From assembly GCA_030682135.1 (NCBI GenBank), contig JAUXQT010000060.1:1-54649 (forward strand): a stretch of DNA of 54,649 nucleotides, written 5' to 3'. Position numbers and translations under genes: made by a program. Positions within the stretch are counted from its first letter, which is position 1; each line of letters opens with the position of its first letter. Below, piece after piece: positions 12,243-48,994 of the stretch. This stretch comes from Nitrospirota bacterium (lineage in GTDB: Bacteria; Nitrospirota; Nitrospiria; Nitrospirales; Nitrospiraceae). The notes below the pieces were generated by a model. The model was not told the origin of the DNA and searched no databases. It saw only the letters and a program-made list of their open reading frames with translations.

Positions 12243-13930
12243 CGTCCCACCTCATGCTGCGGCGCCGCCGCGACGTTTTTTTCGCCAGCCTTCTTCACCA
12301 ATGTCGCCACCGTACGGTTCGACTTCGTGAAGTACTCTGTGGCCACACGCTGGATATCTGCCGTCGTCACTGCGGCAATCTTGTCCCGGGCCTTCAGCGC
12401 ATAACGCCAGTCGTCTGCCACTGTTTGATAGAGCGCCAACTGAGAGGCCAGCCCTCCGTTGGATCGCAGCGCCCGCACTAAATCCGCATCGAGGTTATTC
12501 AACACCTTTTCGAGTTCCCTGGCGGAGACCGGCTCCGTCTTGAGCCGATCGAGTTCGGCATAGATGGCCGCCTCGATTTCTGCCGTCGTATGGGGCGCCA
12601 GCGGTGTGGCATTGAGGACGAACAGGTTCGGGGAACGGACTCCCGGATAGTTCGCATCGGAGTTCACCGAGGCGGCGATCCGTTTCTCGCGAACCAGATT
12701 CGTATAGAGCCGTGACGTGAGTCCGTCGGTCAGTACCGCGTCGATCACGTCGAAGACATAGTCATCGGGATGGCCTAACGACGGCTTATGAAATCCAATG
12801 GCCAGTGAGGGTTCGGCATCGAACTCCACTTCCACGCGGCGCTCCCCCCGTTGAGGCGGTTCGACCGTAACCATCGAAGGCTGCGGAGGCGCTGCCGGAA
12901 TCTTGCCGAACGTCTGCTCGAGCAGGACCATGACCTCTTTTGGGTTGATATCGCCCACGATCGCAATCGTCGCGTTATCGGGACCATAGTGGGCTTTGAA
13001 AAAGGCTTCGGTGTCGGCCGGCGTGAGCGACAAAATGTCCGACTCCCAGCCGATCGTCGGAATCCCATATTGATGGGCACGGAAGGCTGCCGAGGTGAAG
13101 GTTTCGAACAATAGTCCGTTTGCGCTGTCGTCGTTCCGCAACCGCCGCTCCTCCATGACCACGCCGCGTTCTTTGTAGAACTCGCGAAGGACGGGATGCG
13201 CCATGCGATCGGCTTCGAGCGCCGCCCAGAGGGGCAGACGATTGGCCGGGAGACTGATCGTATAACGAGTCATGTCCTTGCCGGTCGCGGCATTGAGCCC
13301 GACCCCGCCATGACGCTGGTAGAGCAGGGCCATCTCATTGCCTGCCACGAACTGTCCCGCCCTCTCTTGTAATTCTGTGAATCGCTTTTGCAACCCCTCG
13401 ATCGCGGTTCGCTCCTCGGGGCTGGCTGATTTTCCGACATTCTTCCGTGCAAATTCACGTTGCCGCTGCTCCAACTCGGTTCCCACCCGAAACAACTCCT
13501 CGAGAATCGGCCGCTCTTTCTCGTAGTCCTTCGTCCCGACCGTTCTCGTACCCTTGAAGGCCATGTGTTCGTAGAGGTGCGCCAGGCCTGTTTGCCCCAC
13601 CTGCTCGTTCACCCCCCCGACCCTGAATGTCATGTTGAGCGACACCACCGGTGTTTGATGCCGTTCGACCATGAGCACCGTCAATCCGTTCGCCAACTTC
13701 TGCTCCACCACACGGTCCGCCAGACCGGGCGAAGCGGCATGCGACAGGTCGAAGCTAACGCTGACGGCCAGGAAAACGATCAGAGCCGTGAAGCGTGAAG
13801 CGTGAAGCGCAGGAAGAGCAAAGCACTGAGCGCTGAGGCGCCTGCCTGATTTTTTTATGCCGGCATGTTGTCGACTGCTGCTGTTTGCGAGATACGCTTC
13901 ACGAGAGACGATGGACGATTCGATCATCAT
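12239..13930 (-). CDS. M16-family zinc protease, catalytic subunit
   Basis: 563 residues. The inverted zinc motif HLYEH (His118, Glu121, His122) in GLAHLYEHMAFKGT is intact, and the third ligand region follows. An insertion rich in Glu, Arg and Gln (about 143-190) looks coiled-coil. The C-terminal M16 domain has DGLTSRLYTNLVREKRIA. A hydrophobic export segment (ALIVFLAVSVSFDLSHA) is at about 49-65, but it is preceded by an unusually long 48-residue basic n-region, partly encoded by three GTGAAGC repeats (13785-13808). The true start may be internal, or the repeats may have extended the gene. It overlaps gph by 4 bases and the partner M16 gene by 4. Confidence 0.88.
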   Translation of the reverse strand: MMIESSIVSREAYLANSSSRQHAGIKKSGRRLSAQCFALPALHASRFTALIVFLAVSVSFDLSHAASPGLADRVVEQKLANGLTVLMVERHQTPVVSLNMTFRVGGVNEQVGQTGLAHLYEHMAFKGTRTVGTKDYEKERPILEELFRVGTELEQRQREFARKNVGKSASPEERTAIEGLQKRFTELQERAGQFVAGNEMALLYQRHGGVGLNAATGKDMTRYTISLPANRLPLWAALEADRMAHPVLREFYKERGVVMEERRLRNDDSANGLLFETFTSAAFRAHQYGIPTIGWESDILSLTPADTEAFFKAHYGPDNATIAIVGDINPKEVMVLLEQTFGKIPAAPPQPSMVTVEPPQRGERRVEVEFDAEPSLAIGFHKPSLGHPDDYVFDVIDAVLTDGLTSRLYTNLVREKRIAASVNSDANYPGVRSPNLFVLNATPLAPHTTAEIEAAIYAELDRLKTEPVSARELEKVLNNLDADLVRALRSNGGLASQLALYQTVADDWRYALKARDKIAAVTTADIQRVATEYFTKSNRTVATLVKKAGEKNVAAAPQHEVGR

Positions 13931-26715: not shown

Positions 26716-27114
26716 TCAAGCCGAGCGAGGCTCGGACTGTAGTGCTGCGACCATCGCCTTATCGAGGCGCTTCACCTTCCCGTTGCCATCCGTTGCCGCG
26801 AGGCGGGCTGAGCCTTCGACGATCACTCGCTGACTTTCCCGTTCTCTGATCATGTGCGAACAGGTGAAGGAGGCTGCCGTCACGTCTGAGACGACCGTCT
26901 CGATGACCAGCGTATCGCCATAGCGAGCTGAAGACCGGTAATCGACCTCGGCATGCACCACGACGAATACCACGCCTTCTTTCATAAGCCCGGCCACTGA
27001 CAATCCTCGTTCTTCAAGATACTGCGTCCGCGCCCGCTCAAAATATTTGAGATAGTTCGCGTAGTACACAACCCCGCCGCAATCGGTATCCTCGTAGTAG
27101 ATCCTAATTTCCAT
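26716..27114 (-). CDS. ybgC: YbgC-type acyl-CoA thioesterase
   Basis: 132 residues, hot-dog fold. The N-terminal signature IYYEDTDCGGVVYYANYLKY with FERAR is that of YbgC/FadM thioesterases, with the catalytic Asp at about residue 11. The central strand set VHAEVDYRSSARYGDTL completes the fold. Members are often linked to the Tol-Pal envelope system and hydrolyse acyl-CoA or acyl-ACP, though no tol genes are in this window. An S23-type unit begins 19 bases upstream of its start. Confidence 0.88.
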   Translation of the reverse strand: MEIRIYYEDTDCGGVVYYANYLKYFERARTQYLEERGLSVAGLMKEGVVFVVVHAEVDYRSSARYGDTLVIETVVSDVTAASFTCSHMIRERESQRVIVEGSARLAATDGNGKVKRLDKAMVAALQSEPRSA

Positions 27115-27132
27115 AGGAGCGAATGGCCAAAT

Positions 27133-27605
27133 AAGAGCTTATGGCTTATGGCCTGGACAATAATCCGAACCACGGAAAAGAATCGAACATTACGATATCA
27201 ACAGCGTGTTTCTAAAAGCGTTGATACTTTTCGCAAGCCGCTGTCCATCCTCATATAAGGCACGATGTTCTATCTCTGTGATGTACGCTCGATCCTTGGC
27301 AAGAAACGCCCCGGCAACCACTTCAAAAGTTGACCCCAGGGCAATCTCCAACTGATAGTCGAATGCTTTGTTACTGTTTTTGGCCGTCCCCTCCGCGATA
27401 TTGAGCGCGATTGAATTCACTGCCCGATTCAGCTGGGATTTTAATCCATAGTCTTCATGTCTAGGAAACTTAGTGGTTACGGCATAGATCCTTGTCGCGT
27501 ACTCCTTGGCCAACTGCCAAATTTCCAACGTTTCAAATCTGAATGCCATTCTTAATTTTGTCTTTGTTCGTGCTATATGCTACCAGCCATACGCCATAAG
27601 CTCTT
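27133..27605. mobile_element. Unit with 20-bp inverted ends enclosing an S23 four-helix gene
   Basis: AAGAGCTTATGGCTTATGGC (27133-27152) and the reverse complement of AAGAGCTTATGGCGTATGGC (27586-27605) match at 19 of 20 bases. Between them is only the four-helix-bundle gene. The right end touches the stop codon (27605-27607) of the CARF-type gene. No transposase is present, so any movement would be non-autonomous. I infer a mobile or formerly mobile unit. Confidence 0.6.
27190..27549 (-). CDS. Four-helix bundle protein, S23/23S rRNA intervening-sequence type
   Basis: 119 residues beginning FRFETLEIWQLAKEYATRIY, with FPRHEDYGLKSQLNRAVNSI in the second helix, ALNIAEGTAKNSNKAF, then EIALGSTFEVVAGAFLA. 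All are hallmarks of the S23/IVP family, first seen inside intervening sequences of 23S rRNA genes and related to the Avd accessory protein of diversity-generating retroelements. It forms pentameric basic bundles that bind nucleic acid. No rRNA or reverse transcriptase gene is nearby. The gene is framed by inverted repeats (27133-27605), and its base composition is more AT-rich than the surroundings. Confidence 0.85.
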   Translation of the reverse strand: MAFRFETLEIWQLAKEYATRIYAVTTKFPRHEDYGLKSQLNRAVNSIALNIAEGTAKNSNKAFDYQLEIALGSTFEVVAGAFLAKDRAYITEIEHRALYEDGQRLAKSINAFRNTLLIS

Positions 27606-28861
27606 TAGACGTTCAGCGTCGGAAATTTCGGGAGCGACGCCTCATGCGCCCCTGTGAGTCTCAACACGACGTCATACAACTGCTGGACCCGCTCGGCCTT
27701 GACCGGCTCGAAGCCATGGCCGAGGACGGCATGACTGGCCGCGTCGAGCAGAGGTTTCATCGTCGGCCACTCACGCAGAAATGCTTGGCCCATCTGGTCG
27801 CCCAATCCGGCCAGCGCGCGAAACTGCGCCTGCAGAGGCAATTTGTACTTGCCGTCGAGATCTTCCAGCCAGCATGTCCGGCAGGTTTCTCGTAGCGCCT
27901 CCGGCAATTGCTCCGGCAGCACGTCCCAGGTTTTGATCTGGTACTGCTTGAACAGTTGTCGTTGGGCAAAGGCTTCGAGCGCACGAACCAACGAAACCAT
28001 CGCGGTCTCCGGATCATGCGCACCGCGCAGTCGCCGTCCGGCATGGGCCAGTAAATCGATAGGCTGCATGTCTTTGACCGGGGCAGGATCGAGCACAAGC
28101 TTTTCCAGAAATCCCGCATTCGCTTTGATCGGGGGAAGGACGGCTTTGAGCCCTGGTGGTCCGCCCCACAATGCCGCCATCTCGAAGGCTTTCACGGCAT
28201 GCTTCAGTTTCTCCCAGGCCTGACGGTACTGGAATCGCTCCCAGAGATCGTAGCCATCTGCCAAATCTGCAAAGGCCCGATAGAGCGGCTTCTGCCCCCC
28301 GCTCACCCTGGCTTCGAGTTCGCGAAACAGCTTTGCCGATGCGGCAAACAATCCCCGATTGAACAGCTCGCAGCCCTCGCGGCGCGAGACCGAGGCCGCC
28401 TCATCCCAAGGATTGCCCTGCGTCCAGAGGAACGGCTGTCCGGCGATATCGATCCGATCCTCTTCCTGTCCCTCTCGCGCCGGCACGAGCGAGACGACCC
28501 GAGAGCTATGCGACAAGGTGGCCAATGTCAGCGCACCCGCCATGGCCGGAGTCGCTCCGGTCACATCGACGACGAGCTCGCCTGGCTGCACATCCCACGT
28601 ACGCAACATCTCCGGGAGCGCCTGCGCAATCGCCCGATAACAACCGACAAATTCGTCGGTCTCCGCCAAGACCACCCAATCCCACCGTCTTGGCATATGT
28701 TCAATCTTCGGTTGGACGTCGGCTTCGACGAGCGCTTTCGCCCCCTCCGGCAACACAAAGCAGAGCGAGTCCGGCTGCAGGCGATTAATCGAGTAGACCG
28801 CCGCTGCCGTATAGCCGGTGAGGGCGATCACTAATGCTTTTACTGGTTGGTCATGTGCCAT
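27605..28861 (-). CDS. CARF-domain protein, TIGR02710/Csm6-like, outside any CRISPR locus
   Basis: 418 residues from ATG 28859-28861. An in-frame ATG at 28907-28909 has a better Shine-Dalgarno (AGAAGG), so a 16-residue longer form is possible. The N-terminal CARF-like Rossmann fold shows KALVIALTGYTAAAVYSI, a central WDWVVLAETDEFV, and GELVVDVTGATPAMAGALTL, where the D-x-TG-x-T loop should bind cyclic oligoadenylate. The C-terminal helical part (about 280-400) ends ASHAVLGHGFEPV. HEPN nucleases of this family have R-x(4-6)-H there, but the arginine is absent (His377 or Ala375), so RNase activity is doubtful. No cas genes or CRISPR repeats exist in the window. Confidence 0.7.
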   Translation of the reverse strand: MAHDQPVKALVIALTGYTAAAVYSINRLQPDSLCFVLPEGAKALVEADVQPKIEHMPRRWDWVVLAETDEFVGCYRAIAQALPEMLRTWDVQPGELVVDVTGATPAMAGALTLATLSHSSRVVSLVPAREGQEEDRIDIAGQPFLWTQGNPWDEAASVSRREGCELFNRGLFAASAKLFRELEARVSGGQKPLYRAFADLADGYDLWERFQYRQAWEKLKHAVKAFEMAALWGGPPGLKAVLPPIKANAGFLEKLVLDPAPVKDMQPIDLLAHAGRRLRGAHDPETAMVSLVRALEAFAQRQLFKQYQIKTWDVLPEQLPEALRETCRTCWLEDLDGKYKLPLQAQFRALAGLGDQMGQAFLREWPTMKPLLDAASHAVLGHGFEPVKAERVQQLYDVVLRLTGAHEASLPKFPTLNV

Positions 28862-28923
28862 TGGGCGCGGACTATACCATAGGACGGCGCAAATTCCTTC
28901 CGGCTTCATACTCTGCCTTCTGC

Positions 28924-32725: not shown

Positions 32726-32778
32726 CAAAGACCGTGAAGCGTTCCTCGTGAAACGTATCTCGTGTGAGGATGGAGCTG

Positions 32779-32885
32779 ATAGCGTATGGCTTACAGCTGA
32801 TGGCTCGGAAAAATCACCGTCTGCTGGAAGAGAAGTTGATCATTGGTTTCGGCAGCTCCAGCTCTGACTCCTAGCCATACGCTAT
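32779..32885. repeat. Degenerate inverted repeat similar to the S23-unit ends
   Basis: ATAGCGTATGGC (32779-32790) has its exact reverse complement at 32874-32885. The arms resemble the TATGGC-rich ends of the S23 unit at 27133-27605, but the interior (83 bases) encodes nothing. It may be an emptied or decayed unit. The rest of 32699-32954 holds GTGAAGCG-type repeats (about 32730-32770 and 32900-32940). Confidence 0.5.
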
Positions 32886-32954
32886 AGGCTATACGCTCTT
32901 TTCTTCGGACGAGAGACGAACGACGCTTCACGAACGACGTACCGGAGATGATCC

Positions 32955-46760: not shown

Positions 46761-47372
46761 TTATCGTTCCGGCCGAAGCTGCGCGATCGTGCCCTCAAGA
46801 GTGAGCAGTTTTCGTTTCAAGGGTAACCCTGCTGAAAATCCGCCGATCGACCCATCGTGTGCCACAATCCGATGGCAGGGAATCACCATCGGCATCGGAT
46901 TCGCCCCCACGGCATTACCGACGGCACGGGCATAGTGGCTGCCTCCCACGCGCAAGGCGACCCATTGATAGGATCGCAGTCTGCCATAGGAGATACTCAG
47001 CAGCGTTCGCCAAACCTTTTGCTGAAAGCTCGTCCCTCCCGAGAGGTCGAGCGGCAGATCGAAGGATTGACGGACCCCGTCGAGATAGTCGGTCAATTGG
47101 GCTTGCGCCTCTCGCAATCGTAAAGAAGCCAGGCCTTCCAGTAGCTCCACTGAATCCGCTGGCAGCTCAGACAAGAGGGCCTGACGCGACGCCTGGGGCA
47201 TCACCACCGCGTCGATTCCTTTCGACGTTTCGGAAATGCCCATCCAACCCCATGGCGTCTGAAACACAAAAACGACAGACGCCTGGCGTGGGGCACGAGG
47301 CACGAGGTGAGGGGGAGAATTACTGTATGTGCTGGATCTGACTTCGCTCGTCTTGCCGTTTTTGGCTCTCAT
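46761..47372 (-). CDS. ogt: Methylated-DNA--protein-cysteine methyltransferase
   Basis: 203 residues. Accepts alkyl groups from O6-alkylguanine on Cys166 in MVIPCHRIVAHDG. The helix-turn-helix motif (SGGTSFQQKVWRTLLSISYG, YARAVGNAVGANP) is conserved, and GFSAGLPLKRKLLTLEG closes the domain. The N-terminal 30 residues are low in complexity and may be extra. The ATG at 47370-47372 has AAAGG units of the GGCTAAA tandem repeat as its ribosome site. It is 5 bases after the murJ stop. Confidence 0.9.
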   Translation of the reverse strand: MRAKNGKTSEVRSSTYSNSPPHLVPRAPRQASVVFVFQTPWGWMGISETSKGIDAVVMPQASRQALLSELPADSVELLEGLASLRLREAQAQLTDYLDGVRQSFDLPLDLSGGTSFQQKVWRTLLSISYGRLRSYQWVALRVGGSHYARAVGNAVGANPMPMVIPCHRIVAHDGSIGGFSAGLPLKRKLLTLEGTIAQLRPER

Positions 47373-47397
47373 AGCCTTTAGCCTTTAGCCTTTAGCC
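47373..47397. repeat. Tandem 7-bp repeat (AGCCTTT, 3.5 units) between murJ and ogt
   Basis: Units at 47373, 47380 and 47387 plus AGCC. On the minus strand it encodes the last residues of MurJ (LKAKG), contains its TAA stop and offers AAAGG spaced before the ogt ATG. Unit-number changes would alter the MurJ end and the spacing to ogt. Confidence 0.7.
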
Positions 47398-48994
47398 TGA
47401 GTTTTCGTTTTACCATCCCCCACACGAACACAAGCTCTTCCGAACGCAGCATGGCATGGACGCCCAGATAGCCGCTTACGCTCAAGCCAATTGTCATCGT
47501 CAGCATGATCGACTTCTCAAGCCAATCACCGGGATGCGTCCACAACTGAGCTGCCGCGACCCAGGCGCAGATCACGACCAACGGCACGGACGCGACCAGC
47601 ACGCGGAGCGACGATCGCCCCACCGAGCCCCATTCGATGCCGCCCAGGCGACGATGCAGCACCGCGACTAAGATCCCTCCGTTCACCATCGCCGCCAAGG
47701 CTGTGGCCAAGGCCAGACCAGCCGCACCAAGCGACGACATGAGTAAAAGTGAAAACAGGAGATTGGCCGCGACGGCAATAGCCGCTGAGATGGCCGGTGT
47801 GCGCGTGTCTTGCAACGAATAAAAAGCCGAAACAATGATACGAACTCCTCCGAAGGCCCAGAGGCCGACGGAATAACAGAGCACCGCTAGTGCAGTCTCG
47901 GCCGTATCGTACGCCGTGAAGGACCCATGCTCGAAAAACAGATGGACGATCGGTTGCCGCAGGAGGATCAACCCCAGCATCGCCGGAAGAATGATGAACA
48001 GGATCATGCGAAGGCCGAATCCCAACGTCACACGCAATTCCCCCAACGCGCCGCGCGCGGCCTGCGCAGAGAGGGTCGGCAAGATGGCTGTGGCCAATGC
48101 CACACCAAAAATTCCGAGCGGAAACTGAATCAACCGCATGCCATAAAAAAGATAGGTCGGCCCGCCTGCAAAGAAGGAGGCGAGGATCGTGCTTACCGTA
48201 ATGTTGATCTGTGTCACCGACAGACCGAGAAGCGAGGGGATCATCAGCGTCCCGATCCGCCGTAAACCTGGATGCCCCCACTCCCATCGAAATCCGAACA
48301 ACAAACCTCGCAACTTCAGGCTGGGAAGCTGCATGGCAAATTGTGCGGCCCCTCCTGCGACCACCCCGATGGCCACGCCAACAATCGGCTCCGACAGGTA
48401 TGGCGAGACAAACAACGCACAGCCGATCATGAAGATGTTGAGAAAGAGCGGCGAGAAGGCCGGAGCCGCGAAGGCCCGCACGGAGTTAAGAATCCCCATC
48501 GCCAAGGCCGCCAGGCTGATGAACAGCAGATAGGGAAACATGACGCGGGTGAGCAGCGTCGTCAGTGCAACCTTTTCAGGGTTCGCCTCAAATCCAGGCG
48601 CAAGAAGTTGCACGAGCCACGGCGCGGCAAGAATACCCATGACGGTGACCAGGGTCACGATCGTCAACAGCGTGGTAAAGACGGCGCTGGCCAGCTCCCA
48701 GGCTTCCTGCTTGGTTCGCAGAGTCCGATATTCCGTAAAGACAGGAATGAAGGCCGAGGACATCGATCCTTCGGCAAAGAGTTCGCGCAGCAAACTGGGT
48801 ATCCGAAAGGCGACATAGAACGCGTCCGCGGCAGGCGTGGCACCGAAGAGGCGAGCCAAGACCATGTCGCGGACGAAACCGAGAATCCGGCTGGAGAAAG
48901 TACCAATACCGATCATCCCGGCCGCTTTCACGACGGAATGATTTTCATCCTGCGATGCTGGTGGAGAACCGGGTGACGCGGCAGGTTCGGACAT
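47378..48994 (-). CDS. murJ: Lipid II flippase MurJ
   Basis: 538 residues, about 14 membrane helices of the MOP superfamily. The N-terminal cytoplasmic stretch is followed by GIGTFSSRILGFVRDMVLAR (conserved Arg), ADAFYVAFRIPSLLRELFAE and GSMSSAFIPVFTEY, which are typical MurJ signatures. It flips lipid II across the inner membrane for peptidoglycan synthesis. The C-terminus is basic (KRKLRLKAKG), the last residues encoded by a tandem repeat. It is followed within 6 bases by ogt. Confidence 0.94.
   Translation of the reverse strand: MSEPAASPGSPPASQDENHSVVKAAGMIGIGTFSSRILGFVRDMVLARLFGATPAADAFYVAFRIPSLLRELFAEGSMSSAFIPVFTEYRTLRTKQEAWELASAVFTTLLTIVTLVTVMGILAAPWLVQLLAPGFEANPEKVALTTLLTRVMFPYLLFISLAALAMGILNSVRAFAAPAFSPLFLNIFMIGCALFVSPYLSEPIVGVAIGVVAGGAAQFAMQLPSLKLRGLLFGFRWEWGHPGLRRIGTLMIPSLLGLSVTQINITVSTILASFFAGGPTYLFYGMRLIQFPLGIFGVALATAILPTLSAQAARGALGELRVTLGFGLRMILFIILPAMLGLILLRQPIVHLFFEHGSFTAYDTAETALAVLCYSVGLWAFGGVRIIVSAFYSLQDTRTPAISAAIAVAANLLFSLLLMSSLGAAGLALATALAAMVNGGILVAVLHRRLGGIEWGSVGRSSLRVLVASVPLVVICAWVAAAQLWTHPGDWLEKSIMLTMTIGLSVSGYLGVHAMLRSEELVFVWGMVKRKLRLKAKG

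Follow-up and report, generated by a model that had tools for sequence, protein, structure and literature searches.

An S23 gene between inverted heptad arrays and its geneless relatives in a Nitrospirota genome: a candidate two-part mobile system

S23-A at the junction of a CARF gene and ybgC

For S23/IVP proteins, structures have been available since 2006 (2gsc) but no role has been established, and heptamer repeats between genes have been a puzzle in several phyla. Both are met at one locus in the 54,649-nt stretch of Nitrospirota DNA analysed here (the window). The preliminary description of this DNA took the S23 gene at this locus, framed by 20-nt inverted ends, for a free mobile unit inserted at a stop codon. 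This raises the question of what the unit consists of, whether it behaves as an inserted element and what could have moved it.

The S23/IVP four-helix-bundle gene is intact and lies on the minus strand at 27190..27549, encoding 119 amino acids; it is called type A (S23-A) here. The gene is framed by two 20-nt arms at 27133-27152 and 27586-27605, which are complementary at 19 of 20 positions (95%) and 433 nt apart, and the inverted-pair search returned no other pair of at least 12 nt in 26800-27900. Read along the S23-sense strand, the order is the CARF/Csm6-HEPN gene, its stop codon, an arm, S23, an arm and the start of ybgC. S23 is the sole gene inside the unit and no transposase gene is present there. 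The host gene for the CARF/Csm6-HEPN protein (27605..28909, minus strand; profile match to TIGR02710) touches the arm with its stop codon, and that for a YbgC-type thioesterase (26716..27114, minus strand; profile match) touches an outer arm with its start codon. The frame of inverted ends and the identity of both neighbours were thus confirmed by the arm-pair search, the gene calls and the profiles. The S23 gene also lies outside rRNA, as had been proposed, with no Rfam match in the window between 20000 and 35000.

The arms are degenerate heptamer arrays of the form GC-NN-AT-R, preceded by an AAGA cap. On the S23-upstream side the arm extends inward and spans 27572-27605 (minus strand); in the sequence and in the arm-pair search it reads GC-TTATG GC-GTATG GC-TGGTA GC-ATATA GC after the AAGA cap. 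Its inverted partner on the S23-downstream side (27133..27152, plus strand; AAGAGC-TTATGGC-TTATGGC) was found in the arm-pair search and is among the 80 genome matches of the end consensus described below. A second, degenerate outer arm, AGGAGCGAATGGCC, was read in the sequence at 27115..27128 (plus strand), where it adjoins the ybgC start codon. With this imperfect outer arm and the longer right arm taken together, the unit measures about 491 bp (27115-27605). At two other loci of the same junction (L044 and L054), the matching stretch has a GCCAT-GCTC(T/C)T arm directly before the ATG. A terminal inverted repeat with a fixed 20-bp sequence was considered and discarded, since searches with up to two mismatches revealed a degenerate word family and the five S23 loci of the genome each have a word of their own. 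When the single-stranded DNA was folded, the arms of the unit paired, with a z-score of only -1.69.

The S23-A protein matched the profiles PF05635 (E=1e-30, 106.5 bits against a curated cut-off of 33.8) and TIGR02436 (1e-28, 99.6 bits against a curated cut-off of 24). Its AlphaFold model has four long helices (pLDDT 95.8) and matched best to 2gsc in the PDB (TM 0.92), and reached TM 0.75-0.81 with the better-matching chains of the DGR accessory protein Avd (4dwl). No catalytic residues were recognised in S23. Among S23 pairs dN/dS was about 0.03-0.14, and among four type-A copies 0.04-0.14. Judged from these ratios, the S23 protein is under strong purifying selection and therefore matters.

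We then compared the same junction in relatives. Of 29 CARF|ybgC loci, 26 were parsed, and L060, L061 and L062, which are without the CARF 3' end, were dropped. S23-A was present in 8 of the 26 contigs, with some copies broken, and absent from 18. Three contigs held a different S23 gene with CGTGAAG-type arms, four had CGTGAAG-type arms with the gene deleted, and L053 had a CGTGAAG-type left arm followed by a run of N. Other short spacers were found in L046, L064 and L052, and five contigs had other content. In L039 and L040, the TAG of the CARF gene is directly followed by the ATG of ybgC; these are the empty sites that the preliminary description had suggested looking for. The absence of S23-A from 18 of 26 loci, 3 of them with another S23, and the abutting TAG and ATG in two bear out the insertion at a stop/start junction. 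The idea of a free mobile unit held in part. The unit behaves as inserted, but the gene-bearing form of S23-A (at least 70% identity) occurred in 8 of 32 genomes of the genus with one copy each, at CARF|ybgC only, whereas its geneless end word is dispersed. The target duplication that had also been proposed as a sign of insertion was not found in any of 11 readable copies.

Other junctions were likewise found with changing content. Between a glycosyltransferase gene and LAB_N, relatives had either one of two other S23 types, or remnants of a deletion, or different arrays, or no more than 11 nt. After thrH, an S23 type was found in one or the other orientation, in place of which other relatives had minimal arrays or, within the same arms, a DUF559-like gene; in L243 and L179, the S23 gene of one genome is inverted between the same arms. 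Also downstream of thrH, CCTCCCCTTTGTAAGGGGAGG-type palindromes were seen inside heptad arms that elsewhere hold the S23 gene (L223, L224, L225, L229, L232, L233, L234, L239 and L245), most of them with the DUF559-like gene. The latter, which we take to be of the Vsr type, is possibly a second gene type that uses heptad-arm elements. The reuse of the same junctions may reflect a preference or a small number of insertion-tolerant places. Neither a clean polymorphism within one species nor a transposition intermediate was seen. In one single-contig genome, two copies of one S23 element were found at unrelated places. In this one pair, 10 of 55 arm positions differed, compared to 2 of 334 in the gene region (p=8e-8). 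These two near-identical S23 copies, L249 and L250, also have common sequence outside the arms, on either side, and what moved may thus have been a larger composite unit.

Inverted heptad arms at S23 loci of many bacteria

The genome has five S23 genes and, on reading the sequence, all five lie between inverted short-repeat arrays with five different words. Exact 11-nt inverted seeds were detected at three of the five loci, and the arms of L001 and L003 were recognised by eye; in the alignment test, the score of L005 was only 8.5. For this test, the downstream flank was reverse-complemented and the upstream flank aligned to it; a score of at least 12 was the threshold. The test was applied to 133 S23 loci whose flanks were each 60 nt or longer, which were found by profile in this genome, in others of its phylum and in 80 genomes of many phyla. 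The survey loci are the best profile matches and not a random sample, and L036-L064 (the same CARF|ybgC junction) and L249-L268 were omitted.

Inverted arms reached the threshold at 107 of the 133 loci, compared to 2.5% of mismatched pairs and 4.2% of 168 other genes at the same loci. In the direct-orientation control, 25 of 133 did so. When proteins at least 80% identical were removed, inverted arms were found at 97 of 122 loci. A clear inverted arm was missing at 26 of 133. Arrays were present in the flanks of 106 of 134 S23 loci versus 4 of 134 controls, and with a threshold of at least 21/28 in 125 of 267 flanks versus 2 of 254 control stretches located 400 nt further out. The best array period was 7 in 60 cases, 8 in 31, 14 in 17 and 9 in 8, and the variation within the heptad was position-specific (144 arrays, z=14). 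The Rfam scan found no rRNA at 20 survey loci from the 80-genome set. In the bacteria sampled, S23 genes go with inverted heptad arrays. The exact ends of S23-A, for which a search around other S23 genes had been suggested, are not shared by these, since the word differs from one S23 type to the next; the inverted heptad architecture is common to them. One might speculate that such heptad arrays get called as CRISPR-like repeats.

The similarity of the words followed that of the proteins. In the same orientation, the words matched in about 1% of the pairs at 35-45% protein identity and in 46% at 60-70%; above 70% it was 97%, a value that overstates independence since these pairs include orthologues with flanks shared by descent. 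In the opposite orientation, at most 9% matched among all locus pairs. The Mantel correlation between word and protein similarity was r=0.34 (0 of 999). Matching words also occur across phyla, for instance between L130 (Hydrocoleum) and L187 and between L113 (Desulfosarcina) and L174. The two arms of one element matched with a median of 16-18, whereas between elements with 45-60% identical proteins the median was 8-8.5. Since the arms are alike within and unlike between elements, the two arms are kept alike while the word drifts.

Geneless copies of the type-A end word

The genome (G000; 3.75 Mb, 99.96% complete) was searched with the end consensus AAGAGCNNATRGCNNATRGC, allowing at most one mismatch, and the reversed pattern in both orientations served as the control. 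The consensus gave 80 matches and the control none in either orientation. The type-A end word is therefore present far beyond chance. Its matches pair up convergently in 26 cases and divergently in none. A single pair bears a gene, the S23-A unit (473 bp), and 25 are geneless, with a length of 64-176 bp.

Within the window, the inverted-pair search revealed a geneless nested palindrome at 32733..32932, with type-B (CGTGAAG...) outer arms at 32733-32749/32916-32932 and type-A (GCNNATR) inner arms at 32774-32791/32873-32890; an end-consensus match lies at 32881-32900. This nesting is also seen elsewhere, as type-A palindromes often lie within the loop of a CGTGAAG-type palindrome. By eye, this was the case in 5 of 11 readable copies (L014, L018, L021, L030 and L033, near position 1500), in addition to the one in the window. 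It looks as if the loops of one palindrome family were targets for another. A solo type-B-like heptad array with three CGTGAAG units was detected on the plus strand at 13780..13814 by the lag-7 scan (18/21). No inverted pair reached the threshold there, and ACGCTTCAC follows about 80 nt downstream, at 13894. Another lag-7 array, with three TAGCCTT units, was noticed at 47366-47403; it has no clear inverted partner. No clean empty site was found for the geneless copy that lies upstream of bioA, the relatives without the copy being too diverged at this place. In other relatives, a different heptad family occupies the same spot.

Across the genus, the exact end word had a density of 1.4-14.6 per Mb in the 8 genomes with S23-A and of 0-5.5 in the other 24. 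The density was higher with S23-A (p=4e-4 for the 32 genomes, a value that ignores phylogeny), and 20 of the 24 S23-A-free genomes had some copies. In G028, a close relative with an empty junction, one end was found compared to 53 in the S23-A genome studied. The density pattern is that of a resident gene serving dispersed non-coding copies.

A proposed explanation, its rivals and known systems

We propose that S23-A and its palindromes form a two-part mobile system resembling REPIN/RAYT, in which an Avd-fold S23 protein that is not a known transposase serves palindromes with heptad ends. We give this reading a probability of about two in three. The S23-A unit would be the gene-bearing member of a group of small mobile elements ended by inverted degenerate heptad arrays. 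Its protein, an Avd-like four-helix bundle, would recognise its own heptad word, probably in single-stranded or cruciform DNA, and promote the copying of word-bounded palindromes to intergenic sites without target duplication. Frequent targets would be stop/start junctions or the loops of other palindromes. Since no catalytic site is evident in S23, host replication or recombination enzymes would probably do the strand chemistry.

The spread could instead have taken place at the RNA level. The transcript would fold through its inverted arms, be excised by RNase III like the intervening sequences of rRNA and spread by reverse transcription, with S23 playing the part of the DGR protein Avd next to a borrowed reverse transcriptase. 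The match of the S23 model to Avd 4dwl (TM 0.81) and the excess of differences in the arms of the duplicate pair, as error-prone copying might give, are in line with this route. However, 65 of the 113 S23-bearing genomes, G000 included, had no RVT_1 match and there was no association (p=0.18), and G-U wobble in the S23-sense RNA was not favoured among the arm mismatches (133 versus 177). We consider this route unlikely. Selection for a sense-RNA stem was not supported either, as the wobble test pointed in the opposite direction overall (p=0.014; per locus p=0.13).

Still less likely, in our view, are Y1 transposases of the hairpin-recognising IS200/RAYT type that carry the S23 elements and the palindromes as passengers. 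Y1 was present in 91 of 113 genomes with S23 and in 47 of 84 without (OR 3.3, p=3e-4, ignoring genome size and phylogeny), so Y1 might be a helper, and the palindromic doublets resemble REPINs. Against this, 22 genomes with S23 had no Y1 match, among them G000 with its 80 end copies, and the word follows the S23 identity; Y1 is associated with S23 genomes but is not required. It is very improbable that the heptad arrays arose by slippage or serve as regulatory sites where genes meet, with the S23 genes as unrelated neighbours. Intergenic heptameric repeats are abundant in several genomes and have been read in this way before (PMC4692102, PMC4679880 and PMC2700814), but the association with S23 is strong, two-sided, inverted and clade-specific, junctions are swapped and whole units are duplicated within a genome. 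With reverse transcription unfavoured and Y1 absent from some S23 genomes, we favour recognition of the word by S23 at the DNA level, as the REPIN-like two-part system supposes.

That most of the relatives examined have this architecture suggests that a family of very small mobile DNA elements has been overlooked. S23 genes in 23S rRNA would then be a special case in which such elements landed in rRNA. A wider claim, for which we see slightly less than an even chance, is that free-standing S23 genes are the partners of a widespread, unrecognised class of heptad-ended palindromic mobile DNA. The ribosomal intervening sequences (IVSs) and the heptamers of cyanobacteria, Xanthomonas, Beggiatoaceae and Geobacter would be its relics or members; a clade-specific word would be read by an Avd-fold protein with no known catalytic site, and the free positions of this word would mutate far faster than the gene. 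If S23 proteins serve heptad repeats, a mobile-DNA system without a recognisable transposase would be added; orphan S23 proteins would be related to DGR accessory proteins and the origin of the rRNA IVSs would be explained. Both the role of S23 and the puzzle of the heptamer repeats would become testable.

Heptameric repeats have been published as GGGAATC-type repeats of Xanthomonas and Nostoc (PMC4692102), as TAACTGA heptamers of marine Beggiatoaceae, for which an unknown repeat-binding protein was suggested as a mobile element (PMC4679880), and as heptad elements of Geobacter (PMC2700814). These are, like the S23 arrays, intergenic tandem units of seven bases, sometimes in inverted pairs, and term searches in the three papers found no S23 mention. 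In our survey, TAGGGAA-type arrays frame an Anabaena S23 gene (L129), and TCAGTTA arrays one from Phycisphaerae (L172). This suggests, as a proposal, that the published repeats and the S23 arrays have a common cause. Within open-access PMC text, no paper was found that describes heptad-ended S23 genes outside rRNA; an earlier description may exist elsewhere.

The 23S rRNA IVS of Coxiella burnetii is reported to have tandem GACAGAT heptamers upstream of the S23 ORF and a terminal stem of 28 bp, and to undergo excision by RNase III; it is termed a selfish element, and the paper cites older proposals of IVS mobility (PMC4990558). The S23-A unit resembles it with a gene of similar size between terminal inverted repeats and with tandem heptamers beside the gene. 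Unlike the IVS, it lies between protein genes, its gene is intact and under purifying selection, its ends have many geneless relatives and its arms do not have the look of RNA-stem selection. With the Avd protein of DGRs (PDB 4dwl, 8ub7) the S23-A protein shares the fold (TM 0.75-0.81 for the better-matching chains), but the sequence identity is 7-10% and G000 has no RVT_1 match. The unit differs from a classical DNA transposon or IS by the missing transposase gene in the unit and by the absence of a target duplication in 11 copies. REPIN/RAYT (PMC3116915) has a single-copy gene flanked by ends that recur genome-wide as short extragenic inverted doublets and match the resident gene, as is the case for the S23-A end word. 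In contrast to RAYT, the resident protein is S23 with the Avd fold and not a Y1 transposase, for which the genome has no match, and in contrast to the fixed REP of REPINs, the S23-A ends are heptad arrays of variable length with hypervariable positions.
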